Shown here: positions 76-28,742 of the stretch, one piece after another
How positions within the stretch are numbered: position 1 is the stretch's first letter
Layout: each line of letters starts with the position of its first letter
NCBI RefSeq assembly: GCF_910592395.1
Contig: NC_088317.1
Location: 15,004,001 to 15,068,000, forward strand
Reading direction: 5' to 3'
Origin: Lineus longissimus
Taxonomy: Eukaryota > Nemertea > Pilidiophora > Heteronemertea > Lineidae
Length of the DNA stretch: 64,000 bases
Translations under genes and position numbers: made by a program
Notes under the pieces: generated by a model
What the model saw: only the letters and a program-made list of their open reading frames with translations
The model's database searches: none
Told to the model about the DNA's origin: nothing

Positions 76-3000
76 ATCATCACTAAACAAGGCAACGCGT
101 CACCGACGGCGCCACTAACCACGAATATTGCTTACGATAGAAACAATAGACGTATGAGGTATGTTCAGAAGGCCATGTCGATTAAACGGAATCGACGGAA
201 TCAACTGAAACTCTACGGAAACAATGCTAAAACTGCATGAAATCGCATGACAATTAAAGAATGTTATTACTAATAATAATTACAACATTCCCCGGCTATT
301 AGATCGCTATAGTTATCGAGAACTAAATTTTTACAAGCCGGCCCGGGGATTAATTTACTTCTCGATAACTATAGCTATATAACAATAATGATGACTTTAT
401 TCACATGAACTAATACATGTAGTTTGTCGTGATTACAATCTATACTGTCCAGATTTACATGACATTACAAGATGGCGAAAAGAAGAAGGACAAAGAAACT
501 AGCTAAACTATAATAATTTTTCGATTTTTAGAGCTGAAAGCTTCATCGACGTAACGAATGGTATCAATCAATATATCCATATAAAGGTAAGTACCTTTTC
601 ATCTAACATTCTGTCGATTGTCTGTGACCATTCGTGGAAACTGCCAGACCGGCTTTAACCTTTTCATTACCAACGTCTTGTGACCATCATGTTTATTTGC
701 ACTGGCCGGTATCGGCCTGTGACAATGTCAACCCCAAGAAAGCTGTTTCGAGGAGGTCAATGGTATCAAGATTCACCCAGATAACCCTTGGAAAAGACAA
801 TAGAACAAGGGGAAAAACGACCTGGGTGCAAGCGGGCTTTGTTTAGAGACAATAGACCGTGTATTGGGCTAGGCCTGAATTCTTTTAACTCCAAGGTAAG
901 GGGCCAAGAAAGTAATGGCCAATTTTGTAGATAGTGTGGCCCTTTCTCATCACTATCCCATTCCCATTCCGGCACCAATATTCATTCGACAGAGAATTAA
1001 ATTCTAGACAAAACCAGCTTGATGTACATACATGTAGTTCCGATTGGCCGTCACATAAAAGTGGCCGATTTCCAACAAGCCAATAATAGGCTCGACTTTG
1101 GGGCTAGTTTAAGTCAAATTCTGCTTTCGGAAATCAGCGAACATGCGACAAGAGTGCTTATTTTGGTTGGCCAGGCCAAGTCATCAATACGTTTTTTTAT
1201 TACAGGATGATCATCTTATAACATATCTACCAGTGACAGAAAAATGCTTCACTAATGACGTTTCAACCGATATGATGTTCAAGACATATGAAGTGTCGGC
1301 AAATGCAACATACTTCGGAAGAACAAAGCTGGGAGATGTTTGGCACCACAAACAGGGGTTTCCAGTATTTCCTGGTAAGCACAATCTCCAACCCCAGCCT
1401 TGTCCCAAGTCACTGCAATGCGCCTCCGCCAATTCCTGACGCTAGGTTGGATTGTAGCTACATTGACCGGAGCGATCGACCACCCAAATATCATGACATC
1501 TCGCAGGGAGGCGCGTGGTTTTACCAGGCAGCTCCAACCCGTGAAAGGAATTTTAGGCATCGTCGAGTGAATACATTTGTTCCCCGCTCTCAAACAAGAC
1601 GTGACATTTCTCACCGTTCCCCAAAGGGAAAATTATATACACCCACTCGCTAGCTGTCTTTTATGTATGGAAACACTGGGAAATTGGGAACATCGAAAAT
1701 CGTTACATCGGGTCAAAGTTGCATCATCTATTTTCCTTTGATTTTTGTCGAATTTAAAACAAAAATAAAAAAAATAAACTTACTTTGAACCAACAATGTA
1801 CAATGTACTTTTCAACAATTTGGTCCCATTGTATTAAACCGCTGTTGTATTTGACTGATGCATAATACCAAGAATTTATAAAAACTAAAGAATTTTGAGC
1901 TTCAGAAATTAAAAAAATTTAAATTCTTTTCAAAAGGGTGGGTAAAAGTTTCCTGAACTCAGATAATAAATATTAATTCATTGTAAATCATATTACCAAG
2001 ACGAACAAAATTATACCATTATCAGCTCTGAACTCCTAGAGATAAAGCAGACAAAGCGCATTTTGTCTAAGAGACCCGATGCTTGTCGCGCAGAAGATGA
2101 GCCTAAATGACACCAGGAGATAATGGAAGAAATTGATGTGCTCATATTTCACAAAAGGCAGACAACAGAGAAATGAACAAACAGTCCGCCTCAACCTGCC
2201 AAGCTCAGAGCGACATGCGCCTACTTTTGCTGTGACGGGTCACATTTTCTATTAGCCTAATAATTGCTACTAAACGAATAACACTATTTGAGGCATGCAT
2301 TTTGTAACAAAAATCAAGCAACAACCAGCCAATAGTAGTGATAGCCATTGAAGAGAAGAAATATCTTGCAAAAGCCCCCTATTGTCAAAAGTTGGAACCT
2401 AGTGCTAGTTAAGTTGCTATGGTATTGGTTCCAATTTCTTAGTCTTTATTTATTCTTGATAATACCACCAGCTTATTAGATGCAGTAGCCTATTAATCTG
2501 GCCTATTCCTCATCCGTTATGAGCACTAAACTAAGGGATAGTAAGTATCAAAAAGATTTACCAGCCATGGTTTTCCCCGAGTACCGCATGAAAAATGACC
2601 CTGCTTGATTATATGCAGCTTGAGACAATCGAGCGAGGTTTATAAATAGAATGTCTGATCAAGTAGACAGGGCATCTTGACGCAAGGGCCCAACGCGCCG
2701 CGTAGCGGCAAAAAAGCGAAGCTGGCGAAACATTTATAACGGGTCACCGTCACTTATTATTGGACTTATAGCGCATTTACGGGGTTGCAACTATTTTGCT
2801 TTATAGTGTCACCAGGAAAGAAAAGCATGCGACCTAACGCCGATCTATTTGTATAAAGTGATAATTGGAAGGTATATAGTAGGAAATATCAATAAAATAA
2901 TCATTCCATTTCGTCTTTTGAGGGCATTTTTGATTGTAAAAAATATATGTGTACGTCACCGTAGTCTCTGCAATGATAATTTTATCAGAGCAGTCTCGCG

Positions 3001-6000
3001 CAAGTAGAAGTTCTTTACCTGTTAGTTCTTCACTTATTAGTCTCAACGTCTGGCGCAAAGCCAGACGTTTTCCATTACGATTTCACTACGATGTTTGACA
3101 AGAAGGAGCAGTGCGCGAGATATGCTAATGAGCAGACTTCCCTCGCTTGAGTTTCTGAAGAATGTTCCATATCGCGCGAAGCTCATCACTACTGATTATG
3201 ACAGGCGTGCAACGGTAGGTATCTGCTCCCCAACTTCCACCCTAATACGGTACAATAAGTTACCATTTGATGGGAATGGGACAATGCCCTCACTGTGTAT
3301 GGAGTCATAGGGATAAGAAGACATTATTCATTAGTGTTGGTACAAGTGATTTTGCCCAAAAAGCATGCGCATTCAAAAAACAAAATATGCAAGGTATCAC
3401 GTACATGACCATGACGACGTGCAGAAAGTGCACTGGCCAGTGCATACCCTATGGCTATGTACTAGCAAACATGGTAAACATGAACAACATCATTATTCAT
3501 CGGCAGTTCATTTTACTCCGAGCTTTTCCTGAAACATATAGCCATGATGATTAGGCCTACCATGTACCATGACCAATAACAGCACTAGATCATGTAGATG
3601 AGCCGTATAATCCTGCATGGCGCATGTGGGGCATGCGTCTAAACCAAAGCCCCAAAATCACTTGTTTTGGTCTATTTCAGTTTCACTTGTGTTTCCCCCG
3701 TCTCCCAGTCCATAATACATTTACAGTTTACAATCCCCGATCATGGCCCAACAAAAGGTCATCGGTTGACTAAAGGAACACAACTGTTCAATGTATTTAT
3801 AGTTGAATGCGATCAAACTACGTCTTTTCAATCGTGGATTGTAAATTTAACCCCATGGGCCTAGGGAAGGCCCTATAACAATACTTTCGACACAGTTATT
3901 ATCTCCGCTGCCTCCACCATGTTACACACAGTGCTCACTGCTGATTCTAAAATGCGCCACCTAGTCAAAACAGGACATATGTTCTTCTAGGAATAGATCT
4001 CTTTCCAATATTTCGTCATTCCACTATCGTCATCACCTCATCATACTTTCATTGACATTACAGGCACACATCCACAGAGCACTCTTCAAATCATCTACAC
4101 AGTGGTTATCCAACTAGGATTATAAAGGTAATTTCTTAGCCCCGCACAGTGGGTTTCAGTCTTGATAAAGGGGCACTATCCAAGATAAAGTTACAAGAAG
4201 TAGTCAATAGGGGTCTCTCACCTCTCACTGTATGTCCACACTATTCACGCTTGTACGAGGAATACATTCAATGCTGAATCTAACAACACCCAGTGCCCTT
4301 ACTCTGTATATTAGTCACTGGAAGATGGCCCATTTCACTCCTTCCTTCTACTTCACCTATAGTCTCATGGCAAACGCCTCGGTTCTATGATATCACATTC
4401 ACTTTCAGCTGTCATGCAACGCAACAACTGTGCTATCTGCCATCGCACATCAACGAAGAAGTGCAGCCGCCCACATTCCACCTCACGTCTGTCCGAGCAG
4501 CTGCAATCCTCGAGGACGCCCCACTGTACCACGATTTCACTACGATGTTTGACAAGAAGGAGCAGTGCGCGAGATAGGCTAATGAGCAGACTTCCCTCGC
4601 TTGAGTTTCGAAAGAATGTTCCATATCGCGCTAAGCTGACCACTGCTGACCATGACAGGCGTGCATTGGACTGGTACTGGTTGGAATTGAACATTGAATA
4701 TGCTGGTGGTGACGCTTTCTGATGAGAAGTTGGTCGTGACTGATTCAGTATCCTTGGACTTGTCCACAGCATCGTTCAATCATTGCTCTCTGAGCTGCCT
4801 TGATTCTGTACTTACCCAAATACTAAGACCAAACGCCTGTTGACTGTGCTTTAAGAGAGACTGGCGCCATGCCTAGAGATATGACTGACCCCTATTGGCA
4901 AATTTGTATGACTTTATCTTGCCTACCTAGCTGCTGCCTATAGTCTCCCTTTAACTGCGGAACACTTCAAAGTCGATAAAATGCCATGTTCCACCTTTAA
5001 ATGTGTTCAGACCGCCATTTTCAAAATAATCAAGTCAGGACACTGCCTTCTAGTCTCATAATAAATTTTGCTTTCCTCAATAATAACATTTCTTCTTCTT
5101 CAATGCTTTCATCATTCCAAACTTCTCCTCCTCGGACTTTTACAGGGGTACAGTCATGGCAATCAAAACCCAAATACTGAGACCAAATGCCTGTTGACTG
5201 TGCTTTAAGAGAGACTGGCGCCATGCCTAGTCTCTCTTAAAGCACAGTCAACAGACACCAACCCCCTCAGACTCAGAAACCACAAACGCCCAACCCTTCC
5301 TGCTACCTTAATACTTCTGGATCCACAATGTATTGACATTGCTCAGCTTCCAGTACAGCATGCAAGTACGTTGTATATGTTATCCATTTCAAACAAGTTG
5401 ATCGGCTATTACTCATAAACGGCTTCGCTGTACACACAACGGTAACAAGTTTAGCGTGATGCCACTATCAATTGCTGTTGCATGCTCGTGTAGCGGTCGA
5501 TATATCGGCAAGCGTTTTTTGGTCACGTTCAAAAACCGCAAAATATTTTCTGTTGAAACTTACGCAGTGTCCAAAGAATATTTAAGGGCAAACCATGTGA
5601 ATTTGTTTTTAAAATCCAGGTCATAATAGCAGCGAAGTGGTCATGGAAAGTGAGCCTGTGTGATCGAAAAACGAGTTCACCATACATGTAAGCTTATATG
5701 CTGCCAAAAATGTATAAGGCGAGCGATTGATGATGCTTAATTATGCCATCGACATGTCCCGCATGAGGGCGAGGGGCACGGTAAACTGAGGCGCCGGCTA
5801 AGTGCTATTAACAGCAGATCTGAAGGTATAGGCCCGATGCATACTGCCTCAATTAACTCCCGATAATACCGGTCCTTTATTCTTTTAGGTCCAAATCTCA
5901 AAACGGGCATGGCAGATATCTATCTTACATTGACTGATGATGGGAGCTGTTTACCTGTGTCAATAACAGCTCACCTCAGTTCACTTAAGGTGAACGCAAC

Positions 6001-7283
6001 TATATCGTAAGTACCCGTCATCAAAAATGAATTGTACATGTGTATGGCTAGCCAGGTCTGTTGGTAGGTATGTTGAGAATAATATGACTTTTGGAAATAG
6101 AACACGGTTTGTTTGCCAAAACTATTTTTCTTTTAAACCTACATGTAGTTCATTTTTAAATGTTTTTTCACAAAAAAAACGAGATTTTATACACGGTATT
6201 TTGGGCAAATAATTTGAGTTAGTTGATAACATTCATTGGAAAACTAGGTTTATTTGCGTTCCGAAACTTTTTTTTCAAGAAACACAGTTTGTTGGTTATT
6301 TTCATTTTGGCAAAAGAATTGTTTCTTTTTTAAAGCAGGTTTGTTTCTATTTAAAGGGGACTATAGGCAGGAGCAGAGGGGCTAATTTGGCCATCTTCAG
6401 GTGACTAATATACACAGTAAGGGCCCTGGGTCATGTCCGGTTCAGCACTAAATGTATTCCTCGTACAAGCGTGAATCATTTCGACGTACTGTGAGATGTG
6501 AGAGACCCATATTGGCAACTTCGTGTAACTTCATCTTGCCTGCCTATCTGCTGCCTATATTGTCCCTTTAAGGGAAACAAACCTAGTAGTTGGAGAAGAA
6601 AAAATACAAAAAACACCCTCTTGTCTGTTTAATTGAACAAACTAACGGCTAGCCCAATGAAATAGGCTCGCCATACATAAATATATAGAGTTATTCAGAA
6701 GAAGAAAAAACTGCCGGTCTTTCAAAGTTGTATATCTGAGAGATGGACGCACAAAAAGTAGGCCAACATGTATCTTTAATTAGTGCATATCTTGATAATC
6801 TTGAAGTTAAATGTCGATGTTTTTTTGTGATGCAGAGGCTTTAAATCTAAAAGTTATTAGAGGCATAATTTCAGAGAAAAATGTAAATTACTGATACTGC
6901 GATATTTGAGGCGTCCTACAATTATGAGGACAAGGCAACAAGCTACTAGATATAACACTGTCAGTTTAGATTAGGAACATGTTCTGATTCGCCCGCATCG
7001 TTCGTCCGCATCGATCTAAGTAGTATTACCCGATCAAATTAGGAATTCGGTATCTCGAATTTGGAATGAGCCTCCTGGGCGTTCGTAATATACCGTTCCT
7101 GGAGCACTCTTGTTTCAATGCTTATATGTTTTCAAAATCACAAGACGCTTTTATTTGCAAATTGGTGACTTTGTGTAAAGAGTGACCTATATATCACATT
7201 GCCTCCTCTCGCGTTTCAGATTCGACGACATAACAATCGGGATTAAAGACACAAGCATATGGGCGATTCCAGACTATTGCTAG
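76..7283 (+). CDS. Ependymin-related secreted protein, copy 1 (5' exons outside window)
   Basis: Five exons are visible: 76-158, 532-586, 1206-1374, 5889-6006 and 7220-7283 (TAG stop). Each is bounded by AG and GT, with phases 0/2, 2/0, 0/1, 1/2 and 2/stop, so one frame runs through. Family landmarks are FDRNN-like 'YDRNNRR' in the first visible exon, one Cys in 'EKCF', 'ANATYFG', the 'DDGSCLPVS' block, and the C-terminal 'GIKDTSIW...DYC' just before the stop. This order matches vertebrate EPDR1 and invertebrate MERP proteins, which are secreted or lysosomal lipid-binding glycoproteins. The signal-peptide exon and the W-containing exon 2 must lie left of position 1. Intron 3 is about 4.5 kb because of a 3.2 kb insertion (2525-5724). 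Family assignment rests on motif order and exon phase, not a database search. Confidence 0.83.
302..378. repeat. Short inverted repeat in copy 1 intron
   Basis: A 17-bp arm starting near 309 ('gctatagttatcgagaa') is matched by its exact reverse complement ending near 376. The matching intron of copy 2 has different sequence here, so this may be a small unit-specific insertion. Confidence 0.5.
3048..3071. repeat. Short palindrome in the multi-copy element
   Basis: The arms 'aacgtctggc' and 'gccagacgtt' are separated by five bases. The same hairpin is present in inverted orientation near 60800 and, degraded, near 61366. Confidence 0.6.
5192..5253. repeat. 62-bp hairpin with 25-bp perfect arms
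   Basis: The arm starts 'tgttgactgtgctttaagag' and its exact reverse complement follows a 12-bp loop. An identical hairpin is at 58109-58170 in the inverted copy. A single arm is also seen near 4837 and 58463. Confidence 0.75.
6351..6571. mobile_element. TTAA-flanked MITE in copy 1 last intron
   Basis: TTAA occurs at both ends (6351-6354, 6568-6571). The inverted ends begin 'aggggactataggcag' and close 'ctgcctatattgtccct'. Related ends are near 4951, 22961, 29320, 42366 and 58384. The size is about 220 bp with no coding capacity. A TTAA target is typical of piggyBac-type elements; that class is an inference. Confidence 0.65.
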
Positions 7284-7428: not shown

Positions 7429-7449
7429 GGCACTCCTGCATTAATCATT

Positions 7450-7645
7450 TGTTCCTTCGTTTTCTTCTTCTTCGTCGACAGTTTTCTTTGTATTATTCTT
7501 CTTCATTGACATTTTTCTCTGTATTATTCTTTTCAGCTGAAAAATGTATATGTATCATTCTTGTCAGTCGACATTTTTCTTTAAATTCTTCTTCATCACT
7601 TACAGTTTTCTTTAAATTATTCTTCTTCGTTGACAAAAAATTGCC
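7450..7645. repeat. Pyrimidine-rich minisatellite after ependymin copy 1
   Basis: Degenerate units of about 30-40 bp contain 'ttcttcttc' followed by 'acagttttctttaaat'. The equivalent array after copy 2 (28920-29190) has more units. Confidence 0.65.
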
Positions 7646-7649
7646 CAGC

Positions 7650-8569
7650 AAGACGGTTGACGATTAAATCTACGCCAGGTCTGATTCAACTGGATTTTTA
7701 CCATTGATTTATGTAGCTGAGGGTCTCTACTTTCAGAAACTGTTGATGACATGTTGTTACCCTTGAGTAATTTTAAGAATTCAAGATGGCGTCCAACAAA
7801 CACTAACTTAGATTTGAACCCAGACCAGTGTCAGTCTAAGTTACCCCCTTCAATGTGTACTACCTTGATGAACAACCCTAACACCATAATGATTTTCATT
7901 TAGATTAACTAATTTATTAAAACCGTACATTTGGTATCGCAGGGCAGTGTGTACAGAAAATCATAAATTGTCACAAACTACGACTTTGGACGGATATAAT
8001 TAATTGTCCATAGGTTTTTAAAAATATCACAGAGATAGAATAAGATAATTGAATGCGGTTTTCAGCAGAGAATGGTATACCTAGTTGGTCATGTATCAGT
8101 TGTATTTGGCCTGTGCGTCATTTGCCAAAAAAATACTGTAGCCAGGCCATAAGTGAATCATATTAGTAGGGGATTATTCAAGACACGCCCAACTATTCCT
8201 CATTTCTTAACATTTCTGAAAAAAAACCCAGAATAATCGGAAGGTGCGCACTGTGCGAAAATTTGTGCACCGTGTACGATTTAAAATTGTGACGATTAAT
8301 GTTTTGCCATGGTGCAGGCGAAACAGGTAGATGAAAAGTACTTAAGAATTTCAGACTAAGTTAGTTTTTGTCGTGGCTATTCCAGGAAAATGAATTACTG
8401 CCTACAACCCTGTGCCCATTAAACGGATTGGGATTCTAAAAATACACTAACAATTGCATTAGTTGGACCGTTGCCAAAACAGGCGACGAGGTTGGACAAC
8501 GTGCGATCGGCGATGACCTTTGCCCTCTTTAAGTTTTCACAAAACTTCATACAAATTCACCTGGGCTAT
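7650..8569. other. Intergenic stretch, no gene seen
   Basis: Only short chance reading frames. No splice-bounded exon or recognisable repeat end was identified. Confidence 0.5.
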
Positions 8570-8788
8570 TGTGGTGATCTGCTGGACCAAGGTCAGTGTG
8601 AGAGGCTTCGGCCGGGCGGCGTCAATAGTCCGTGGTCCGGTGGATCACCGTGCCATCTCCCCAAAACTGTGTAGAGGGACCGGAGGTGAGGAAGAGGTTG
8701 TGTGTGTAGAGTTCTAATAAAGGTGGTTATTATGAAGGGGAGCATTCCGAGTTGTTCCTAATTAAACACTGAGGAGCCGTGTTTCACA
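8570..8788 (+). repeat. 5' LTR of Gypsy element 1
   Basis: It starts TGTGG and ends ...TTCACA. It contains AATAAA at 8716-8721. It is followed at once by 'tggaggcagcg', a plausible tRNA primer-binding site. The end point is inferred because the 3' LTR is truncated after about 35 bp. Confidence 0.55.
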
Positions 8789-9390
8789 TTGGAGGCAGCG
8801 TTTTCGGGTGTTAGATGCCTCATGCCCCGACAATTGCAAGTTTGTACGAAGAATATCACGCTACCCGCTGAAATTTTGTATAGTCTCGAGCAACGCAAAA
8901 TCTGGCCACGAGTGTTGGATGCTGTCAAGTCGAACTTCAGCACTTCTGCGCTGGATTTGTAACCTGTCAATGCCTAAATTGTAATAATTGAAGTCTTTGG
9001 GAGGTGTTAGGCCTGTGTCTATGACGTCAAACCTGTTAGGCCTGCGATTTTCTACTTCTGTGAAAACCAGTCTCGCGCATTGCACTACACTGATGCACTC
9101 ATTTTTGTGTGCTGGAGAGGGATTGTGCTAATGCGCTATATGCTTGATCCCTGGTATTATGATCTGTAGTACATTTCTCCAGTGTATCATGGGTATTGTG
9201 ATGGTTGTGATGAAATAAGAGGCTTGACTGGTTGGGAATAAAGTGAACCTGCCCTAGTGTGCTGTATGTGCAGAAAGTACGGATAAGATTACCTGTACAG
9301 AAGATTACTAATTGCTGTGACAGGGCTGTTTTGTGTTTGTTAGTGGTATACTGGAACCTATGGTATACTGAAAATAGGAATCTTGTGAAT

Positions 9391-10670
9391 ATGGCCAACA
9401 TACAGATTGTAAATGAACGGACTCCAGGACAGGCCCGACAAAACCCAGCAGTGGCGACACCACTGCGCCCGCCGCTGAATCAACCTACAGCGCCTCAGGG
9501 ACTCTCGGGCCACAATCCATACCGAAGACAACCAGTGCGTCAGAACCTGGGTGGAGGTGCCCGAACCTTGGACCTGTCACCGGTAACACCTGGTACGGCT
9601 ACAATGGTGGAGAATCCGAGACCCAAGACTGGGCAAGTAGTGCAAGGTGCACCACCAAGGATGCCAACCACCATCGAAAGCAGCACCTCTCGACATCAGT
9701 TGACCCCACCTGGACCAATGGCGAATCAAAGCGTAGGGGACGCTGATATAATGGCATCCTTCTTAGATTTTACCTACCTTGTTGACACATTGAAGCAGAG
9801 GACCCCTGTGTCGCACTCTCAACCTGCTGCCAAAGCACAGGCACCCAAGAACTTCATGGTAATTCAAAATTCAGAATTTGGTTAGAGAGGTTCAATACCT
9901 TTGCTGATCCAACCAAAATCAAAGTTGGGGGCCGGGGGCAGCAACTACTTTCAAGGCTTGACCACCACGCCTATGTTGCCGTGGCGAATCTCCACCTTTC
10001 ACCAACATTGCCGTTTGATGAGTTCTGCGCTGCCCTTGAGCGCCGCTTCCACAACACAACAAAGGAGGATTATAAGTTGCAACCCGAGCTCATACCCAAG
10101 GTGGGTCAGAGACATATGAGACTTTCTCGGATGCTCTATTGGAACTAGCCTTGAATGCCTCCCCGATAGTGGTTGGGAGTTGCAGCGGGAAATGACCCTT
10201 GATCAATTCCTTTTGGGGGTGAGGGCCGCTGACTAAGTGAAGCAACAGCTACTGATGAGCTCGCCCAAGACCCTTGAAGAGGCCATCAGGAAGATTCGCC
10301 AGCTTGAATCGGCTCAACTCCTCCTGAAGCAGGGAGCGTGACATCAGGAGAATGCTAAGACATCAAGTGGCACAGCCAAGCCTAAGGTAGCCAGTGCAAC
10401 CACTGGGGCGACCTCACCGGTGGCCGGGTCATCAGAAATGAGTCAGGTCCTGGATCTTCTACAGAAAATGGACACCCGAATTGGAAAGTTAGAAAAGTCT
10501 GGTGGCCCTGAAGGTGGCCGTGACGTGCGTGAACCAGGGATCTGCTGGAATTGTAAGCATGCAGGCCGGACACCAGGCTGGTCGGTGCCAAAGCATCACG
10601 TGTTATACTTGTGAAGGCACAGGGCATATGTCTGGATCTTGCCCAAAGAACAAGGACCAGGGAAACTCAA
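9391..10670 (+). pseudogene. Gag of Gypsy element 1 (frameshifted)
   Basis: A proline- and glutamine-rich frame starts 'MANIQIVNERTPGQ' (9391) and stops at 9885. Gag-like sequence then continues in other frames. Near 10540-10660 one frame gives two CCHC-type zinc knuckles, 'CWNCKHAGH' and 'CYTCEGTGHMSGSCP', the usual nucleocapsid signature. Several frameshifts make the gene non-functional. Confidence 0.65.
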
Positions 10671-11089
10671 AGACGAGGTCGTCGCGGGGCGGCGGTCCTC
10701 CAACAACAGTCAGTAGCTCCAGCTTCAGTTTTGCAGGGGGATGTCCAACCAGGTTTCCGGGATTTTGCTCTAAATACCACAGAGACGGGCTCTGCTCTAG
10801 TCATGTCCAGTTTTGGTTACATTCCCCAGCCTGCTGAGCCAATACTGGTTACTTGGAGCGAGAGGAGTACCACGATGGCCCCGCTGGATGACAACAATTT
10901 TAGTAAGGGAGGGGAGAGTACTAGAGACTCTGCTCTAGTTATCTCTGGTACTCAGTCGGCACCGCTCTGGACAAGCCCGAGAAGGTAACAACATCACCTT
11001 CGAAGCTGACACCTAACCTTACAACAGCTGAGTCCAACCCGACTAGAATTCTACCTATTGGTCAAATTGAATTCAAAGACAGCAGTCTT

Positions 11090-12900
11090 TATGTGAGTGG
11101 TGAAGTCGATAACACACCCACCACAATGTTGCTTGATACAGGTGCTGCTCTCACACTAGCCAGCAGCGCATTGTGGGGAAAGTGTCCAGGGAGATCGCGT
11201 CAAGAGCTACAGAAAGTTGAAGGGAGTTTGCAGTCAGCCACTGGTGAGGAATTGAAGATGATTTGAATGGCAGAGGTCAACCTTCGCCTGGGATCTTTAG
11301 AGTTCAAACATCCCGTGGTGATTGTGGACAACCTGACACCTGACTGCCTACTTGCGAGTGAATTTCTGCAGGCCCATGACTGCAGTATCAGCTATAAGAC
11401 TGCGATCTTGGAAGCTGGCGACTGCGAGATTCCACTGAGAAACCAACAGGGTGGGCCAAAGGTATGCAGATTCGTCCTAGGTCGGGGTTTCCGTATACCA
11501 GCTGGTATCGAGATGATCCTACCTGGAAAGTTATCCAATGGACGGAAGGAGAGTCACCTGACACCAGGGATACTGGAAGCAGCAAAAGGGAAGCACCCTT
11601 TTATCACGGGAAGATCGCTGTTGTCCTCTGATTATGGTAAAGTTCCGGTGAGAGTGGCTAACTTTACGGATAAGCCTGTTTTTATCAGGCCTGAAAGAAC
11701 AATCAGTTGGTTCCATCCTGTTGCTGAGATAGGATCGGCGGAGGGAACACTGTCCTCAGAGCAAGACACGAACCTGAGTGAGACCACCCAAGAGACTCCA
11801 AGTCTGAACATCTTCAGTGCTAGTGCACCAAAGTCTGAGCAAGAACCACCATCGGCTCCAGGGAAGGACAGCTCCGAAGAAGATAAGGAGCGGCTGGCCG
11901 CACTGCTTGAGAAGCTGGAACTCAGTGAGCTGGATCTTGCAGAGGAACAAACGGCTGCAGTGGTTGATTTAATTGCACGACACCAGTATGTGTTTTCAAT
12001 GGCGATTTCGATCTCGGCCAGACCCAGGTGGTTCAGCATACAATTGATACTGGTGATGCCCGCCCGATCAAACAACATCCAAGGCGTCAGCCGCCCCATC
12101 GACAGCAGTTTGTGGACAAGACGATAAAGGAGCTGATGGATCACGACCTATTTCAGGAAGGACAGGACCCTTGGAGTTCTCCAATAGTACTGGCCCGGAA
12201 ACACGATGGCTCAATCCGTCTGTGTGTTGACTGTCGAAAGATGAATTCCTGCTCTGTCAATTCAACCAAACCATTGCCCAGAATTGACGAAAGCCTCAGC
12301 AAGCTGTCAGGCTCAAGGTATTTCTCATGCCTGGATTGTGCCAGTGGCTACTGGCAGTTGGATGTGTCACCTGAAGATCGAGCCAAGACGTCGTTTGTTT
12401 CAGGCACCAAGGCAGTATGAATGCCGTGTAATGCCCTTTGGCCTGACTGGAGCTCCTGCTACCTTCACCAGGCTAATGAGCTCTTCGGGGGCCTAGATTA
12501 CTGCCTGGTCTACCTGGATGATATAATCGTTCATTCTGCGACGTTCGAGGGACGTATCGCTGAGCTGGAGGAGGTCTTCACTCGCCCAGAGCAAGCTAAC
12601 CTAAAGCTGAAGCCTTCAAAGTGCAAGTTATTTCGATCCCTCATGAAATTTCTTGGCCACAAAGTGACGGCAGACGGGATTAATATGGATGAGGAGAAGG
12701 TCAGAAAGGTGGCCGATTTGCCCACTCCATCAAACATGTCAGAGGTCCGCACCTTTATGGGGCTAACGACTTATTATCAAAAGTTTGTTCCTGAGTTTGC
12801 CAACATTGCCTCTCCACTGCATCGTCTCACCCGGAAGGAGGTGCCATTCGTCTGGCCAGAGCATTGTGAGCAGGCATTCAAACTTTTGAAGGAAAAGAGA
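11090..12900 (+). pseudogene. Protease and reverse transcriptase of Gypsy element 1 (broken)
   Basis: The retropepsin site Asp-Thr-Gly-Ala is at 11135-11146, with a stop at 11264. A frame 11267-12127 continues the protease C-terminus. Reverse transcriptase shifts frame near 12028 ('HTIDTGDARPIKQ', 'SPIVLARKHDGSIRLCVDCR'), again near 12410 ('VMPFGLTGAPATFTR'), then has the catalytic 'YLDDII' near 12510 and 'FLGHKVTADGI'. Similarity stops near 12890, where an RNase H domain should begin. Confidence 0.75.
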
Positions 12901-12976
12901 GGTCTGCAACGCGTGCTATTTGATGTTTGTTATAGCAGACTACGATTGAAAGAACGGAAGAGGTTCAACGTTTCTT

Positions 12977-13696: not shown

Positions 13697-14189
13697 ACCC
13701 CTCTCCTAGCGCTCTGTAGGGAGTGGGGGGGACCGTGTCGCTCTGGCCTGGTGTTCTTGGTTGCTTTCAACTCACTCACTCTTGTGCCATCCACTACATG
13801 TACATCGGCGGAAATCATGGAACAACTCCGCTGAACTTTGTGTTTTGTGACTTGACTTGGAATTACTGGACTGTGTTGTCCCACGTCATATGGTTATGCT
13901 CTTCTGAACTGGAATATTGTGCAATTGCTGAGTGTTTGTGTGTTCATTCTTATCATGTAGTGTAGGCCTCTATGCCTGATTTGTATTCTTATGTGGTGTA
14001 CTGCTGCGGTAACTTGGAGGCTGCACCTGTGTTTTATTGATGTTGATGTGGACTTGACTGTACTCATAGTCTATATTTTATTAGTGAATTAGTGTGAACC
14101 CATATAACTTGAGGTTCAGGCCTAGGCCCACTGCCATTATTTTGTACTAGATGTATATATGTGTTCAACTCTGTGAGGTTGAACAATTT

Positions 14190-15335: not shown

Positions 15336-18300
15336 ATGAATTTCAGCATCTTTGCTATACTTTTGGGAATCGTAGGTGTTACCTGGGGCTCACCTCTCGC
15401 AGCATTACATGGAACAAGGGTTGCAAGAGATGTCGGAGGCGCAGCACCACCGCGTTGTGGTATGTATTATTGTTGCAATTTCATGACACATTCCCAACCC
15501 CATCGGTTCAAACTGCCCAAATGGATCATGGCGGCGTACGCGAGAAGGGGCGGCTAATGGTCCATGTTTATGTAATTCACGTTGCCAGCGTTTCCAAAAA
15601 TGCGTGATCAGTCTATCGCTGTTCGCTTGTGGCATTTTCCTTGTTCCGTGATCGCTTGTGAACTTGTGATGCGTCACATACAAAATGAACCTTTGGTTGA
15701 CTTGGGGCCTACTGGTGGTTCCCATTGCTTGTATCAGGGAACTCGCAATGGACAAAAATGATGGAGATAACGGAAACAACGCCACAAGTCCACAAGTGTG
15801 ACATGGCAACGGGGTATGGATACGCCATTTGAAGATTTCTCGACACTTTTTCCGGAGCCCGTTTTCTTTTTGTCAGCAGTCAGGTCATGTCGCCCAATCA
15901 TGGCGTTCCGCCCTCACCGCCAAATTTAGATGGAGGCACGCTACCGGTACACCCGATCGGGTTTTTACAATTCCGCGCAAAGGGGATATTTAGACAATAG
16001 CGTTGCGACTGCTCTTTATAACAAATATCAAGATGGTATATATCATATACCCGAAGTAAACTGATCCGGCAGAAAAGACCACGAAGACCTCCAAAAAATG
16101 CCCCATAAATCCATTCAAATTCATCCAAAGTTCCGGACAGTGTTGCATGAGCGGACGGCGTTTAACAAAAACCCCACTTCTTAACGTTTCAGAGTTTATT
16201 TTGAGAGAAATGTGTGAAAGATGCATGAAGCATTTAACGCTTCACCTGAGCGTGCAATACAAAAATTCAATAAAAATATCCTTGCACGAGAATGCTCGAG
16301 ACCATTTCTCGTGGAATCCAGACTCGGACTGCTGAAAGACCGTTCGCTTTTACGTCATTTTCAATGTCGTCCTTAATTTTTTACCTTGAAATTCAGCCAC
16401 GTCCCGAAGTCAGCTCAAGCGTTACGTCTTCCTCGACGATTCTGGACAAAAATTACGAAACTTGCATTTTTGTCTTCATTATTTGCTATTTATAGTGATG
16501 TTTGTGGTATATGATAAATAAGGCCGTAGAAAATCATCTCGTGCTATCTGGATACTCGGATCAGCCACTCGCGCAGTTTTCTTATTTTTGTGTTTTTTCT
16601 CGCAGTTATTCCGCCACTCTGGGAAGCAAAATCAAAAGTAAGTATGGCTTTTCGCAATGTTCCGAGAATGTCTGATTGTTCACAGAACTGCTTGGCTAAT
16701 GCAGCGGTCAATTTAAACCCTGACACCCCCCTGGTCAGGCGTTCGACACTTTATAACCATTTTTGAAATTTCAATGCGCCCAGGGATCGACCCTTTTGCA
16801 CCCAGGGTGGTGCAGACATGCACCAGAACTTCACCACCCTAGGTTGGTTGCACAGGTCAGGGCTTCGACTGTTCTTCACCATTGAGAAGACAGACGTACG
16901 TCAGGATATCACCATATTAATAAAAACAGGAAAAAAAAGAATGTGTCAAAGAGAACAACAATAAAAACAATCATATTGCCCCAACTAATTTTTTTGTCAA
17001 AGTCACTCTTCGAAAGGAGACAATAATAAAACAACTCGCGTGGGATTTGTGAGTGCGCAGAACACGCGAGTGATGGTCTTCGGCCTGAAAAATCACAGAC
17101 CATCACAAGTGTGTTCTGCGCACTGACACAAATCACACGAGAGTTCTTTTATGATTATCATACCAAGATGTTCGCCAAAAAAGGCAATTCAGTGCTCAAA
17201 ATCTGTGAAAAATTGCCCGCTGCCGGCCACCATGACATCACGTCATGAAACATGAATGTTCCACTGGTGACACAACTTCGTCGATGCCTGGCGGGCGACG
17301 CTTATCGGGAAATTCGTGACGTCATCCAAGAGACGAAATCCACGGTAATTTCTGCTCACCTTTTCACATGTGTGGCCATCCCAAACTCGCACAGTGCCGA
17401 AATTAAAATTCAATTTCAGACACTTGAATTGGTAAAATTCCGCCATCTTGGATATCGGCATCCTGAGATTCAGGTGTTTTCAACACTGCGTCACCACCAC
17501 TTCAAACTCCAAAGTCTTATCCAGGCCTAGTAAGTGCCACCTTCTTTCATAAAATGGCTTGTTTTATCAATAAATAACAAAATATGAGCTTTGTAAATAA
17601 AACCCGCGATGTTCTGGTGTGTTTTTACGTGAATTTATTGCAAACTATCAATGCAGCGTAGTGCAGCCATCGTGTTCTCGGGCGTAGTGGTGATGCGATA
17701 GCCTCTTTGCAATTGTAAAGATTCTTTTCATTTCCACATCCGCGGTACTGCTTTTCAAGATGGTGGCAATTCACCAGTTCTAGAGGCGTTGTAAGGAACG
17801 AAATCAGCGCCTCTAGTGTCAAGATTGTGGCCATCCCCGCCATCTTGCCTATAATAGTGATATTATGATAATGAGGTGATCTGATGGTGATACGCCGTCG
17901 TTGGCCGGGCAAGATTCCTGATCGCCAGACGTTCGCCACCAAGGAAAAAGCCATGCGCCACGCATTCGACAAAGCTAATTCTCCTGATGTCCAGACTGTC
18001 GACAATTTTTCACCGACATCTTTTCAGCTTATCGCCATGACATCGTCGTTTGAAAAAAAATCCTTTGCTCAGACATCGACGCTAAATCGACGTCGATCCC
18101 TGACCAGGGGGGTGTCAGGGTTTACATTGACCGCTGCATAAATAGGCATGGTTCCAAAAAGGTGCGGTTAATGCAAAAACCGCCCGGTGATATTGATGAT
18201 ATTATTGATCGAAACGTGTCACGAATACAATAAAAGTTCCTTAAAAATAAGAATTGTTTCACATTTTTCAACTGAAAACTAACTGATATTTAAACTATTG

Positions 18301-21300
18301 AGATAGCACGTGGCGCAACGAACTAGATGGAAGATGGCAAAAATGTGTCTAAGGGTTGGAAATATCAGCAATAAACCTCGTGAGAGTCAGAGTTCATACA
18401 AAAGCAAAAACAATTGTTGATCAGAAGTAGGGTGTGCTTTAATTAACGCCCAGTCGCAATTCATTTCAGATTATCGATAAACAGCGCAACGCGTCACCGA
18501 GTCAGCCACTGATTAACAATATTTCTTTCGATAGAAACAATAGACGTATTAGGTATGTTCAGAAAGATGGGAGCACACAGAACCAAATAAATGTGTGCGA
18601 GATCTAAGTACATGTATATGCATATTTATTTTCCATATAATATGCTACATCTTCGTTTTGAAATACCTCCGCGACACGATTTTGTAAACGTGTAGTGCTC
18701 CCGGCTTTAATGTGCTCAATGTTTGAATACACGCGGTGATGGGTCTCAATGCCAGGGGCAGATGTTTATTTTATAAATTTCTGGTTCAAATGTCAACTCC
18801 TGTATCGGAGATGGGAGCGACATGCAATCGGTATCAAACTCAGTGACTGTATACCAGTTTTATAACCCTAAACGAAGATATTTTTCGTAATAATAATGAT
18901 GACTTTATTCACATAAACTAATACATGTAGTTTGTCGTAATTACAATCTATACTGTACAGATTTACATGATATTACAAGATGGCGAAAAGAAGCAGTACA
19001 AAGGAACTTACGAAACTATAAATTTTTCGATTTTTTAGAATTGAAGCCTCCCTCGACGACGTATCGGAGGGTGTCGTTCAGTATATCCTTTTTAAGGTAA
19101 GTACCTTTTCATCTAACATTCTGTCGAATGTCTGTGACCATTCGTGGAAACTGGCAGACCGGCTTTAACCTTTTCATTGCCAACGTCTTGTGACCATCAT
19201 GTTTATTTGCTCTCGCCGGTTTCGGCCTGTGACAATGTCAACCCCAAGAAAGCTGTTTCGAGGAGGTCAATGGTATCAAGATTCACCCAGATAACCCTTG
19301 GAAAAGACAATAGAACAAGGGGAAAAACGACCTGGGAGCGGGCTTTGTTTAGAGACAATAGACCGTGTATTGGGCTAGGCCTGAATTCTTTTAACTCCAA
19401 GGTAAGGGGCCCAGAAAGTAATGGCCAATTTTGTAGATGGTGTGGCCCTTTCTCATTACGATCCCCTTCGTTGCATACCACCCGGCTGACGAGTGATACG
19501 TTCTTGACTCGACCACCCTTAGCCTCCAGGCTCTAGGTTTGTCCACAGCTCGCTAAAATCAGTCGTATGGACTCGGCCAAGTCCGGCACCAATATTCATT
19601 CGACAGAAAATTAAATTCTAGACAAAACGAGCTTAATGTCAGCGAACATGCGACAAGAGTGCTTATTTTGGTTGGCCAGGCCAAGTCATCAATAAGTTTT
19701 TTTATTACAGGATGATCGTATTATATCCTATCTACCAATCGTAAAAAAATGCTTCACTGTTAATGACGTTTCAACCGAATTGATGTTGAAGACATATGAA
19801 GTGCCGGCGAATGCAACATACTTCGGAACAACAAACTTGGGAGATGTTTGGTACCACAAACAGGCGTATCCGTTGTATATCCGTAAGGCCAATTTCCAAC
19901 CCCAGCCTCGTCCCAAGTCACTGCAATGCGCATCCGCCAATTTCTTACGCAAGGTTGGATTGTAGCTACATTGACCGGAGCGATCGACCACCCAAATATC
20001 ATGAGATCTCGCTGGGAGGCGCATGGTTTTACCAGGCTGCTCAGCTCTGAACTCCTAAAGATAAAGGCTATACAACGCATTTTGTCTGAGAGATAAAATT
20101 GACTAGGCCTACATAATTTCCCGTGCTATGGCGTGGTGGTGGGCATTCTTTGTCTTCGAGGGTTTTTAGAACCTCGTCGAAATACCATTTCCTCCGCTAT
20201 TAGTCTAATAATTGCTACTAAACGCCGCGAGTAACTCTATTTGAGGCATGTATTTTGTGACAAAAATCAAGCAACAACCAGCCAATAGTAGTGATAGCCA
20301 TTGAAGAGAAGAAATATCTTGCAAAAGCCCCCTACTGTCAAAATTTGAAACCTAGTGCTAGTTAAGTTGCTATGGTATTGGTTCCAATTTCTTAGTCTTT
20401 ATTTATTCTTGATAATGCCACCAGCTTATTAGATGCAGTAGCCTGTTAATCTGGCATATTCCTCATCCGTTATGAGCGATTGATGATGCTTAATTATGCC
20501 ATCGACTGTCCCGCATGAGGGCGAGGGTCACGGTAAACTGAGGCGCGGGCTAAGTGCTATTAACAGCAGATCTGAAGGTGTAGGCCAGATGCATACTGCT
20601 TCAATTAACTCCCGATAATACCGGTCCTTTATGCTTTTAGATTATACTGTCGAAACGACCATGGCAGATATCTATCTTACATTGACTGATGATGGGAGCT
20701 GTTTACCTGTGTCTATGACGGCTCACTTCAATTCATATCAGTTTAACAGAACTGCATCGTAAGTACCCGTCATAACAAGATGTCTAAGGGCCTGGCGCTC
20801 AGCTGAGTTAATATCATTAATATCTTCCCGGTGTTTAGTTCATTATGCATGAAAATGGCATGCTCCATGGTATTTGATATCCTTTTGCGTTCACTACGGT
20901 ACCAATGTTTTTGGTTGACATAATTATGCCACTGTTGGAACATTCTCATGGTTTATGGTATGCACCTGTTGATGGGCCATATGAATAAAAACTAGCATAA
21001 GCTTTTACTTCAGATTTTGAAGTATTTAGTATGCTTCAAAAATTGGAATAGTTTAGTACTTGTGAAAGCAAAGGATTTTTAGAAATCAGTATTTGCTACC
21101 AAGTCAAGTAAATGCTGGACTACATAAGAACGAAAATGTAGGATAAACCTTTTACTTGGTAGTATAAATGTATTTTCTTGGAATCATGTAGCCTTTAAAA
21201 GTCGAAGTGAATGGTTGGTTGTTCCTCTTTGCCGGACTGCATTCACATTTTGTTTGGTGGACATGTCATGCAAGAATTGGTCAAACCATACATCCATTTA

Positions 21301-24300: not shown

Positions 24301-27300
24301 AAAGATGATCTAAGCCGGCAGCTTCACTCCTCCAGTACCTATTGTCAATGCGATCGTACAACCGAGCTTGTGGTTGCCAAGGCTCGTGCGAATGTCCACA
24401 TTTTTAGTTCCTTTTGGTTCAGCTGTGTAACTTGACGGATAATCCAGCTGCATGAATGTCTCGTTCATGTTGAGCAAACGCTGCACATGCTGATCTCGGA
24501 CAGTATTCCTTATTTCTTGCTGAAACTCAGCAACCCGTGCTGCTGCATCCGCTGGAAGTCCGGCAGAATCTGTTGTACGCCGCGAAATACTATGTTCCAT
24601 CTTTTCATGAAATGCGTAACCCAACCATCGCTCGCACCATAGTTTGAACGTTGAGGACGGTCTCTTTGGATTCGTGCGCGTTCATCCAGTGGTAGGTTGT
24701 TCCTCCATCTATCGAATGCGAGGATGGCAGCATCTTGGAAGTCTTCTCTGGTCACCGGAAGTGCGTTTCGCCGTGACTGAAGGAAGGCGTCATGGACCAC
24801 CTTCTCAACTTCCGGCCAGCAACCATCGTGGTTTTCTCGAACTCGCCTTGCCTGCGGGGCCGTCTTTAGCTTTTCCATCAGGTCGTCGATGTTGCTTATC
24901 CATCCCCTCAGCGTTGTGGGTGGGATACGGTACCTCCGAGCATACTCGGCTGCGTTTAGAATTCGCCCCTGCTGGATGAAACCCTGGCTGTCAAGGACAT
25001 GTCGCACCTTTTCCTGAGTCGTATAGGAACGCAGTTTCCTTGGTAGCGGCTGCTGTTGGGCGTCTTCAGGGTTTGGGTCCATTGCCAGAGTTGGGATAAT
25101 AGCAATACAGCGACGAAAAGTTGAGCGAAGTTCATCATGACACTATATACGGCATCAATCAAGAATGCCCCAATCGAAAATCCTACCAATGGGCCAATTA
25201 CTAAGAGATAACCCTCATGTAATTCTATTACGAATACCTTAGTGGCTTTATTTCAAATAAAGGACATTGACAATGTTGAGCAATGTTGTAAGACTCTGAT
25301 CTACGATGTCAGCAACAAGCATTGGACATCATGTCTGCATGTGATGTAGATTTCAAATCCTAGTTATTATGGAAATTAGGGATCTTCCTATCGGTACAGT
25401 TGTCTGCCTATAGACCACCCTCATACACATGAGCCAATGGTCGTAACTTTAGAGAAAAGGCATAGGTACCTCCCCAACGACGAGGTAACTGCGCGAGCAC
25501 AGTATACACTCTAAAACCTTGTTTTTATGGGTACACATCCAATATTCCAGTCCATGGAATAGATTACGCCCCCCAAATCGCACTATAAAAGGGCTACTAA
25601 GATATATTCAAAGGCATGGCCAATGGGCCTTTCACCGCGGCAGAATTACATCTGGCCGACTTCAGTACGACCAATTTCAAGGTGTCCACGGCCGATTACG
25701 ACGATCGTTTGGACTGATAGGTTTTGTCACCAATTGCGCAAGAGTGGCAGACAGACATTCTAGGCCTGTATAAGCGGGTATCTAGTTTCAGTTGCTCACT
25801 TTGCCAATTGTGAAGATGGATGGTCAAGAGCCATTGCGAAAACGCCGGAGAAGTTATACAGTTAGAGAGAAAATAGCCTACTTGCAGGACCTTGAGGCTG
25901 CTCTGTTGGACGGAACCGTCAACAGCATGCATGAATTTGCAGAACACTATGGAATCTCAGTCCGAACAATGCAGAAATGGAATTTGTATGAACTAGAAGA
26001 AAAAGCTGGTGAAGGAAAAGGCAAAGTCCGACACGTAAAAGAGGGGAACATTGGTCTTTGGCCTGATGTTGAAGAGAGACTAATCGTCTGGTTTAGAGGG
26101 GTCAGAGAAAAAAGGCTGCCTGTCGCCGTCGAAGACGTCCAAGAGAAAGCTACGTCAATTTTCAAAGACTGATGGCACGCGTTACCCACTGACGATAGAC
26201 AAGATTTCATCCGCACTCGATCAGTCATGAACGAATTTCACGCTTCGAACGGCTGGGTTGCGAACTTTATGGACCGGAAATGTCATTCCGGAAAGCTAAC
26301 AAAAATACGACCACCCTCGCAGCTGATGCCGCCAATTGTGTGCAAGTGTTCAGAGACACGATCGACCGATTTGAAATTCCGATGAGACTTCTCTTTAACA
26401 TGGATCAAACGTTTGCCTTGTTTGAGCTACGACCAACGTACACATGCAGCATAAAGGGAGCAAAGTCCGTGGATATCCGCACCTCAAGGTCCAACACCAA
26501 ACTTGGATGTACAGTTACTCTTGCAATCACTGCAACCGGCGGAAACGTGGCGGCTCACGTGACTTTCCCAAATAAAGGATTCGTCAGGCAGCTTGCAGCC
26601 TTTGCGGACCAAGAGCTACCAGAAAACGTGGTCATAACTTCATCAGCAACAGGTTGGATGAAGGAGGAGACAGCCGAACATTGGTTTGAACACGCCTTCC
26701 AACCGTATATAACCGCAGAAGAGGCTGAACAGTTTTTGTTACTGGTCGATCGGTACCGGGTTCATCGAAAGGAAAATTTCGGTGTGCAAACTATGAACCT
26801 TGGGGGAATCCTCTATTTCATTCCCGCCGGTTGTACATCACTTGTCCAACCCCTGGACCTGACTGTCATCAGATCCCTCAAGAACCATATGCGCAAGAGG
26901 TGGAAAGCATGGAAAAAGAATCACACGGATAGAGAGGGCCGATGCGAACCAATTCAGCTGATGGATGTTGTCACCGTTGTAAGTGAGGCGTGGGCTGCTG
27001 TTGATGGGGCCGTGATTGAAAAGGGTTTTGAGATGGCATTGCGACCGGTCCCTATTGAAGCTGGGCCATTCCCCAACCTTGAGGAGGAGGAGGAAGAGGA
27101 GGAACCGGGTCTGGAATTCGTACAGGTGGAAAGGGACGAAATTAATATGGACTGAACTCTTATCATTTGGACGTTGAGCATTATGACATGTAAAAATTAA
27201 AGTGTCCGTTTAGGATTTGGGGGTAACTACTGCAAGAGTCCTTAATTATTGTTTCAGAATTGTTCTAGTAATCTATGGATAAATGGTGGAAACAGCAATC

Positions 27301-28742
27301 TTAATTGTGATAAGTAAGTATTCAAGTAGAATAAATGACTATGAAAGGAGAATCTTGTTTACTTGATTTTTCGACAATTACCCTATCCAAAACCTGTGGA
27401 ACTCTAGAGTAATTCTTATGTTCGGAACTGGCACCGTAAGCCTAGCATTCGCTAACGTTAACACAGGTTTTCATGTGCATTTTTAGCGTAAAAGGTGGTG
27501 TTAACGCTAGGGATTGTGTTATCGGAGCCAGTTCTTAACCTCTCGTGAAAGCACTCTTACATGACAAGTCCATACTATACAAGCGCTAACACTAACGTTA
27601 GTCTTAGGATTTCCTAAAACTCGCATTTATCCCAGATCTCGCCCCAAACCATCCAATCCCAATAAATCAATTCACCGATTAATTTTTGGAGCCACCCTGT
27701 ATAAAACCGCGAGTTGCAATAGGCCTTCTCACCCAATGGGATCAATTTCAAATCCAGACTACATGTCGATTTCACGACCCGAAAAGCGACTGAGTGAAGT
27801 TCCTTCAGACATTCATAGAGAACCCGACCTTAGCCAATCATGGTAAGGTCCCATTGTAAAGACACCATGCATGTGAAATTATTGGGCCGGTCACGCAAGA
27901 TTTTAATGAGGTGGACACTTGTACCCATAAAAACAAGGTTCCTCGTACAAGCGTGAATCATTCCGACGTACTGTGAGATGTGAGAGACCCATATTGGCGA
28001 CTTCGTGTTACTTTATCTTGCCTGCCTAGCTGCTGCCTAAACCTTGTAGTTGGAGAAGAAAAAGCACAAAAAAACTCCCTCTTGTCTGTTTAATTGAACA
28101 AACTAACGGCTAGCCCATTAAAATAGGCTCGCCATACATAAATATATAGAGTAATTCAGAAAGAAAAAACTACCGGTCTTTCAAAGTTGTACGTGTATAT
28201 CTGAGAGATAAACGCACAGAAAGTAGGCCTATCTTTAATTAGTGCATATCTTGATAATCTTGAAGTTAAATGTCGATGTTTTTTTGTGATGCAGAGGCTT
28301 TAAATCTAAAAGTTATTAGAGGCATAATTTCAGAGAAAAATGTAAATTACTGATACTGCGATATTTGAGGCGTCCTACAATTATAAGGGCAAGGCAACAA
28401 GCTACTAGATATAACACTGTCAGTTTAGATTAGGAACATGTTCTGATTCGCCCGCATCGTTCGTCCGCATCGATCTAAGTGGTATTACCCGATCAAATTA
28501 GGAATTCGGTATCACGAATTTGGAATGAGCCTCCTGGGCGTTCGTAATATACCGTTCCTGGAGCACTCTTGTTTCAATGCTTATATGTTTTCAAAATCAC
28601 AAGACGCTTTTATTTGCAAATTGGTGACTTTGTGTAAAGAGTGACCTATATATCACATTGCCTCCTCTCGCGTTTCAGATTCGACGACATAACTATCGGG
28701 ATCAAAGACCCAAGCATATGGGCGCTTCCAGACTATTGCTAG
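15336..28742 (+). CDS. Ependymin-related secreted protein, copy 2 (complete, 7 exons)
   Basis: Exons are 15336-15459, 16606-16637, 18470-18552, 19039-19096, 19711-19882, 20641-20758 and 28679-28742. Together they make 651 bp, or 216 residues plus TAG, close to EPDR1 length. Exon 1 encodes a signal peptide ('MNFSIFAILLGIVGVTWGSP') and ends at a Cys. Exon 2 is only 32 bp and gives 'VIPPLWEAKSK', the family's conserved Cys-x-x-P-x-x-W block. Later come 'FDRNNRR', 'QYILF', 'KKCF', 'VPANATYFG', 'GSCLPVS' and 'GIKDPSIW...DYC'. Four family cysteines are present, with possible N-glycosylation sites such as NAS and NAT. The start is the first ATG after an AT-rich leader. Introns 2 and 6 are swollen by transposons. 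The product is expected to be secreted; ligand and tissue are unknown. Confidence 0.85.
16700..18138. mobile_element. Non-autonomous DNA transposon, Harbinger-like, in intron 2 of copy 2
   Basis: Terminal inverted repeats of about 40 bp start 'tgcagcggtcaat' and include 'aaaccctgacaccccc'. They lie at 16700-16740 and, reversed, at 18099-18138. TAA flanks both sides (16697-16699, 18139-18141), as expected for PIF/Harbinger TWA targets. No transposase is visible. An internal hairpin of about 45-bp arms spans 17034-17147. Confidence 0.65.
17034..17147. repeat. Long imperfect hairpin inside the Harbinger-like element
   Basis: Arms around 'gtgcgcagaacac' and 'gtgttctgcgcac' surround a short centre near 17090, with a few mismatches. 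Confidence 0.55.
20776..22803. mobile_element. 2 kb insertion specific to ependymin copy 2, last intron
   Basis: Copy 1 continues directly from the 'gtacccgtcat' donor region to 'aaaaatgaattgtacatg', whereas copy 2 has about 2 kb between these points. The insertion ends with 'ggtcagctgagc', preceded by degenerate short direct repeats ('actgactggcggacagacg'). No protein was recognised. Confidence 0.55.
23077..23173. repeat. LINE/SINE-type 3' tail fragment
   Basis: 'attgtaaagcgcattgag' followed by 'tgcgctatataagc' resembles the common 3' tail of CR1/L2-like retroposons. It directly precedes pogo element 1. Confidence 0.4.
23176..25502 (-). mobile_element. Pogo-like (Tc1/mariner superfamily) transposon 1
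   Basis: Perfect 26-bp terminal inverted repeats lie at 23176-23201 and 25477-25502, beginning 'ctgtgctcgcgcag'. TA flanks both ends (23174-23175, 25503-25504), the superfamily's target duplication. A degraded transposase on the minus strand fills the interior. Confidence 0.85.
23722..25082 (-). pseudogene. Pogo-like transposase, element 1 (frameshifted)
   Basis: The reading starts at 25082. The N-terminal frame (190 aa, to 24510) holds a helix-turn-helix ('YTTQEKVRHVLDSQGF...RRYRIPPTTLRGW') for DNA binding. Frameshifts move the remainder to 24624-24310, 24189-23998 and 23907-23722. The DDE domain shows 'LLNMNETF' where an Asp is expected at the third position, 'LILDRFRPH' and 'LVQPLDLTVIR'. 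Loss of the first catalytic Asp and the frameshifts imply inactivity. An acidic C-terminus follows. Confidence 0.8.
25516..27940 (+). mobile_element. Pogo-like transposon 2
   Basis: Terminal inverted repeats of about 21 bp, starting 'aaccttgtttttatgggta', lie at 25516-25536 and, reversed, at 27920-27940. The transposase is on the plus strand, head-to-head with element 1. A clean TA duplication is not visible at the right end, where MITE sequence follows at once. Confidence 0.75.
25816..27155 (+). pseudogene. Pogo-like transposase, element 2 (one stop, one frameshift)
   Basis: The first frame (25816-26172) has the helix-turn-helix ('YTVREKIAYLQDLEA', 'HYGISVRTMQKW'). It ends at a TGA where element 1 has an Arg codon, consistent with a CGA-to-TGA change. 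A frameshift near 26275 leads to 26280-27155, which carries the whole DDE domain: 'LFNMDQTF', 'LLVDRYRVH' and 'LVQPLDLTVIRSLKNH', so all three acidic residues remain. The tail is Glu-rich. It is clearly related to element 1 but not a recent copy. Confidence 0.82.

Follow-up and report, generated by a model that had tools for sequence, protein, structure and literature searches.

The 64,000-nucleotide stretch of the Lineus longissimus genome analysed here (hereafter the window; contig NC_088317.1, positions 15,004,001 to 15,068,000) contains two neighbouring tandem genes of the ependymin-related (EPDR) family (Pfam PF00811), which are called A and B in the following. They have five exons in common, and these exons differ between the two genes far more than the introns that separate them. 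In both copies, open frames and AG/GT borders are intact across the five exon pairs. All the exons lie on the forward strand:

76 to 158, forward: gene A, shared exon 1, open frame with AG/GT borders
532 to 586, forward: gene A, shared exon 2, open frame with AG/GT borders
1206 to 1374, forward: gene A, shared exon 3, open frame with AG/GT borders
5889 to 6006, forward: gene A, shared exon 4, open frame with AG/GT borders, an identical 54-nt core flanked by two diverged ends
7220 to 7283, forward: gene A, shared exon 5, the last, open frame with stop codon, little diverged
15336 to 15459, forward: gene B, first exon, with a start codon and a hydrophobic leader, ending in APPRC
16606 to 16637, forward: gene B, 32-nt mini-exon, IPPLWEAKSK, with splice borders
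18470 to 18552, forward: gene B, shared exon 1, open frame with AG/GT borders
19039 to 19096, forward: gene B, shared exon 2, open frame with AG/GT borders, one codon longer than that of A
19711 to 19882, forward: gene B, shared exon 3, open frame with AG/GT borders, one codon longer than that of A
20641 to 20758, forward: gene B, shared exon 4, open frame with AG/GT borders
28679 to 28742, forward: gene B, shared exon 5, the last, open frame with stop codon

The first exon and the mini-exon of B were both absent from the preliminary description of this DNA. The former was found by reading the sequence, a pattern scan having missed it, while the latter was the top-scoring of several candidates and contributes VIPPLWEAKSK, with its first codon (Val) split over the splice junction. 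With these two additional 5' exons gene B is complete, and encodes 216 amino acids (about 213 being the family criterion) with a leader that is hydrophobic as judged by eye. The signal-peptide exons of gene A lie 5' of the window start, and the comparison of the two genes is therefore limited to the five shared exons. No third copy was found within the window, where a tblastn search with the shared-exon proteins matched A and B only, and an Rfam scan at gathering scores gave no matches.

The Pfam Ependymin profile scores 42.5 bits for A and 45.5 for B (partial products), and 44.5 for full-length B, all above the gathering cut-off of 32.3. With the two 5' exons added, the E-value of B against human EPDR1 (PDB 6e7o) fell from 0.0019 to 6.6e-6, since APPRCVIPPLWEA lines up with the N-terminal cysteine and WEG stretch of that protein. 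Profile 1 of the EPDR family has been described as four conserved cysteines with a proline two residues after the third (PMC6280359; this and the other papers cited by PMC number are drawn upon in part). Gene B encodes four cysteines in all (41, 113, 177 and 216) and the in-window part of A has three, while the motif SCLP in both places a proline two residues after the third cysteine; by our own mapping, A and B would thus be assigned to profile 1. Compared with the vertebrate EPDR1 structures (PDB 6e7o, 6jld, 6jla, 6jl9; PMC6363788, PMC6608618), A and B share three of the conserved cysteines and B also has the fourth, a WEG/WEA stretch is present in B, and the position of the glycosylated N130 is kept in both. 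Unlike the vertebrate proteins, however, A and B have no partner of vertebrate C88, and the best E-value of B against EPDR1 is only 6.6e-6 across 180 residues. A glycosylation motif, NIS (residue 69), is present in B, while A lacks it at that place.

Across the five shared exons 162 codons could be aligned, with 52 amino-acid differences, 12 codons differing silently only, and two one-codon insertions or deletions (indels), in close agreement with the roughly 50, 11 and two counted by eye in the preliminary description. Differing sites amount to 89 of 486 in the coding sequence (18.3%) versus 95 of 2198 in the aligned non-coding sequence (4.3%; Fisher p 1.2e-22), and the introns are thus far more alike than the exons, as in genes of the opsin type. 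It should be noted that the non-coding baseline is made of 12 colinear blocks, from which inserts that do not align and the repeat array past the 3' ends were excluded, and that it therefore describes alignable non-coding DNA only. It includes the following:

587 to 949, unstranded: intron block after shared exon 2 of A, partner 19097 to 19455, 8 of 359 aligned bases differing
6573 to 7219, unstranded: intron block before the last exon of A, partner 28035 to 28678, 18 of 637 differing

The first of these blocks had been described as about 97% identical over 250 bp, and the exon that precedes it (532 to 586) as about 71% identical; the measured identity of this exon is 70.9% (16 differences over 55 sites in the BLAST alignment; the codon alignment gives 17). 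The identical core reported for shared exon 4 is also present, with a longest identical run of 54 nt rather than 60. When each exon was compared with its own flanks, the contrast was significant in four of the five: 17/83 versus 3/87 differing sites for exon 1 (p 6e-4), 17/55 (codon alignment) versus 24/510 for exon 2 (p 1.5e-8), 28/169 versus 13/232 for exon 3 (p 4e-4) and 23/118 versus 7/183 for exon 4 (p 1.6e-5). The last exon showed no contrast (4/64 versus 14/596, p 0.087). As change points, the exon borders are placed loosely, with intervals often tens of bases wide. Base composition was rejected as the cause of the contrast (GC 0.414 versus 0.413), and so was CpG hypermutation, as the contrast persists outside CpG (71/422 versus 78/2032). 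The shares of transitions are alike, 48/95 in non-coding and 40/89 in coding sequence (p 0.46).

The excess of replacement over silent codons had been taken in the preliminary description as a sign of strong positive selection, of the kind known for venom and gamete-recognition genes, or else of repeated exon exchange. The contrast between exons and introns is genuine, and its likeliest cause is some selection for difference; however, the count of 52 to 12 corresponds to a ratio of replacement to silent divergence (dN/dS) of 1.07 only (dN 0.213 over 381 replacement sites, dS 0.198 over 105 silent sites; bootstrap range 0.66-1.91, 38.5% of the replicates not exceeding 1). This is not a ratio clearly above 1 as in genes of the venom or gamete type, and no link of A or B to venom or gametes was found in this analysis. 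For exons 1 to 5 the ratio is 0.64, 3.26, 0.83, 2.09 and 0.21, with few silent changes in each. A mean of 1 can conceal sites above 1, for which site models require more sequences, and, since the family-wide omega of ependymins is 0.155 (PMC1805737), a pair near 1 stands out as unusually high within the family. The same description had held that conversion of the introns, together with a dN/dS at or below 1, would undo the claim of selection; with the ratio at about 1, that case is neither established nor excluded.

The silent sites are diverged as well, about four-fold more than the introns. In codons that encode the same residue in A and B, the 70 silent sites carry 13 changes (p 8.5e-6 relative to the non-coding rate of 4.3%), or 69 sites carry 11 if one two-step serine codon is left out (p 1.7e-4), and 6 of 42 fourfold sites were changed (p 0.009). 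A joint likelihood for introns and codons was computed with a simplified model of our own, with one omega for all sites. Starting from a neutral log likelihood of -4528.7, freeing omega gave -4485.5 (omega 5.0), freeing the exon rate -4477.9 (rate 5.0), and freeing both again -4477.9, so that omega (0.99) adds nothing once the exons are allowed a higher overall rate. With multi-base mutations, the values were -4476.6 for omega (3.1), -4472.5 for the exon rate (3.2), and -4472.5 for the two together (omega 1.1, rate 3.0). A free exon rate therefore improves the fit over omega (likelihood-ratio test p 9e-5, or p 0.004 when multi-base mutations are allowed), and the lowest Akaike information criterion, 8955.0, belongs to the raised exon rate with multi-base mutations and no free omega (8963.2 for omega with multi-base mutations). 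A plain reading of dN above dS is not supported on these grounds.

The coding differences are also patchy. Their variance-to-mean ratio in 15-nt windows is 1.90, a value reached by none of 5000 shuffles, and 26 adjacent differing pairs were observed where 16.1 are expected (p 0.0024). Of the 12 silent codons, nine lie next to a codon with a changed residue. Silent sites separated by over 3 nt from every other change differ in 5 of 37 cases (p 0.02), and those separated by over 5 nt in 2 of 25, a rate no different from that of introns. Three processes could yield patchy exons with raised silent sites, namely differences held by selection amid conversion, imported patches, and multi-base bursts under selection.

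The first of these is, in our opinion, the best reading, with a probability of roughly 0.48. The tandem duplication would be older than the similarity of the introns implies, with both copies apparently working and presumably expressed. Non-allelic gene conversion between A and B would homogenise introns and flanks, while selection would remove those conversions that overwrite coding differences, so that the exons keep about 18% divergence. Silent sites in the exons would stay diverged as well, through linkage, and the diverged exons might themselves act as mismatch barriers that restrict conversion to the introns. The raised dS alongside the replacement sites fits old exons next to homogenised introns, and the intact frames and splice borders of both copies also count for this reading. 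So do the contrast of 18.3% coding with 4.3% non-coding divergence, the preference of the information criterion for a raised exon rate with no free omega, and a dN/dS that is high by the standard of the family. It further predicts a shoulder of intron divergence beside the exons. Around exons 1-4, non-coding differences were 4/64 at 1-8 bp, 8/84 at 9-20, 11/180 at 21-50, 14/276 at 51-100, 15/349 at 101-200 and 10/372 at 201-400 bp, that is, 37/604 within 100 bp versus 25/721 at larger distances (p 0.026; p 0.0496 by shifts within blocks), which gives weak support to conversion.

Several points weigh against this interpretation. The neighbourhood of exon 5 was dropped from the shoulder test after that exon had proved little diverged, and once it is included the shift test shows no signal (p 0.66), although the 100-bp split gives p 0.0086. 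Divergence of the non-coding blocks is uneven, ranging from 1.4% to 10.6%. The silent excess lies mostly within 5 nt of other changes, an arrangement that multi-base mutation, or the import of patches, would produce as well. Conversion is inferred here from one pair of sequences, and GARD detected none in the coding alignment of the tandem epdl2 genes of mormyrid fish (PMC9997568).

Precedents for the favoured combination of conversion and selection come from the human red/green opsins, from a monkey duplicate gene cited beside them, which we take to be the colobine RNase, and from bovine CEACAM1/CEACAM32. Like A and B, the opsins are tandem duplicates with similar introns and diverged exons; conversion is frequent in their introns, and divergence peaks in exon 5, an exon tied to function (PMC3924837). 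However, opsin conversion was shown by comparisons of orthologues, while A and B are a single pair, and the opsin peak is one exon, while the contrast in A and B extends to four of the five shared exons. The coding sequence of the monkey gene differs much more than its non-coding sequence (PMC3924837). Bovine CEACAM1 and CEACAM32 are likewise closest in their introns, where similarity peaks, and have one strongly differing coding exon; they belong to another family, and their conversion was detected by GENECONV among several paralogues (PMC7042247). The opsin and CEACAM cases count in favour of conversion with selection. Within the EPDR family, mormyrid epdl2 genes are also tandem duplicates, in which selection was altered after duplication, but, apart from the GARD result, the part of that paper drawn upon makes no mention of an exon/intron contrast (PMC9997568). 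In a literature search on ependymin with positive selection, tandem duplication, gene conversion and concerted evolution, which covered titles and the starts of abstracts of the papers listed and left most subscription papers outside, this pattern was unreported for the family.

Conversion might instead be limited to the exons, where short foreign patches would be imported from distant, older paralogues that can be aligned with A and B only there, leaving young introns untouched. The clustering of the differences and the sharing of the patches by silent changes speak for such a process, as does the existence of large tandem EPDR families in several animals (PMC6280359). No donor, however, was found in the window by tblastn, and the weak intron shoulder is not predicted; we consider this explanation unlikely, if the strongest of the competitors. 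An extension of it, by which the exons of an invertebrate ependymin array would be cassettes exchangeable among several paralogues, with the introns dating only the latest duplication and the array serving as an inbuilt source of new binding variants that might be used by individuals to signal chemically to one another, is a good deal more speculative.

Nearly on a par with exon-limited conversion, and likewise doubtful, is a young duplication followed by a burst of positive selection limited to coding sites, in which multi-base mutations also struck nearby silent sites. Measured against the intron rate alone, omega is well above 1 with or without multi-base mutations, and silent sites more than 5 nt from other changes are no different from introns; moreover, positive selection in the mormyrid epdl2 duplicates acted on sites to which roles in ligand binding and dimer formation were ascribed (PMC9997568). 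A young duplicate under selection nevertheless fits poorly by itself, because the silent sites are raised too: dN/dS is about 1, a free exon rate both fits better and pulls omega to about 1, and an excess of silent differences persists at distances above 3 nt from other changes.

Allelic diversity in some marine invertebrates reaches a range that includes 4%, the divergence of the non-coding sequence here, and A and B might accordingly be haplotypes of one highly polymorphic locus joined in the assembly; this artefact is improbable given the unrelated flanks, since 7600-15330, after A, has one 34-bp match elsewhere in the window and 29100-46000, after B, matches 1-29000 in repeats only, while the variant in which one copy is decaying is likewise improbable given the intact frames and borders, and lost constraint could raise the exons at most to the intron rate.

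The products of A and B are expected to be secreted EPDR-fold proteins, probably fat-binding and possibly specialised in what they bind. In EPDR1 there is a hydrophobic groove, and the human protein binds fatty acids (PMC6363788, PMC6608618). The 16 groove residues named in PMC6363788 were mapped onto A and B, with indel positions scored as differing. With the human EPDR1 alignment 10 of 16 differ, versus 44 of 148 elsewhere (p 0.012; reached by 3 of 164 circular shifts); the mouse alignment gave 9 of 16 (p 0.05; 10/164 shifts) and the frog alignment 7 of 16 (p 0.40; 42/164 shifts), while three MAFFT alignments gave 8/15, 8/15 and 8/16 (p 0.09, 0.09 and 0.16). An enrichment of changes in the groove is therefore no more than hinted at and depends on the alignment, being seen with human and not with frog. 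In addition, pigment binding in the carotenoprotein of a blue sponge takes place at the dimer interface, outside the groove (PMC10470211), which weakens the premise of the test.

The duplicated block ends near 7635 in copy A and 29195 in copy B, and arrays of a 31-nt tandem repeat lie just 3' of both genes (7447-7638 for A; 28911-29195, longer, for B). A repeat at 2675-5330 lies in the third shared intron of A, and an inverted copy of most of this repeat, 94-96% identical, is present at about 58-61 kb. The last intron of B contains two transposase pieces of the pogo/Tc5 kind on opposite strands (24513-25142, reverse; 26340-27155, forward), with matches to Tc5 helix-turn-helix (HTH) and CENP-B_N, and to DDE_1, and reverse-transcriptase pieces (PF00078; 11968-12993, forward) of a retroelement, probably gypsy-type, lie between A and B. 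Further along the window are an inverted repeat (29578-31166; 597-nt arms, 99% complementary, 395 nt apart, made of 113-nt tandem units), two protein-kinase exons (46113-46439 and 47451-47759, both forward, the first closest in PDB to NEK1), a coding stretch of the diacylglycerol acyltransferase (DAGAT) type (55870-56460, reverse) and a segment at 62974-63267 (forward) that matches cullin-4B/4A in PDB over 42-43 residues, with no Pfam match.

Several marine animals have large families of EPDR proteins (PMC6280359). Such proteins are candidates for signals exchanged by crown-of-thorns starfish (PMC9759900), and in a blue sponge they serve as carotenoid carriers (PMC10470211). Genes A and B are a clear example of how a raw count of replacement against silent changes can mimic positive selection even though dN/dS is 1. 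If the exons of such a pair do resist or escape homogenisation, the similarity of introns would misdate duplicates of this kind, and the pair would pinpoint the residues that distinguish the paralogues.

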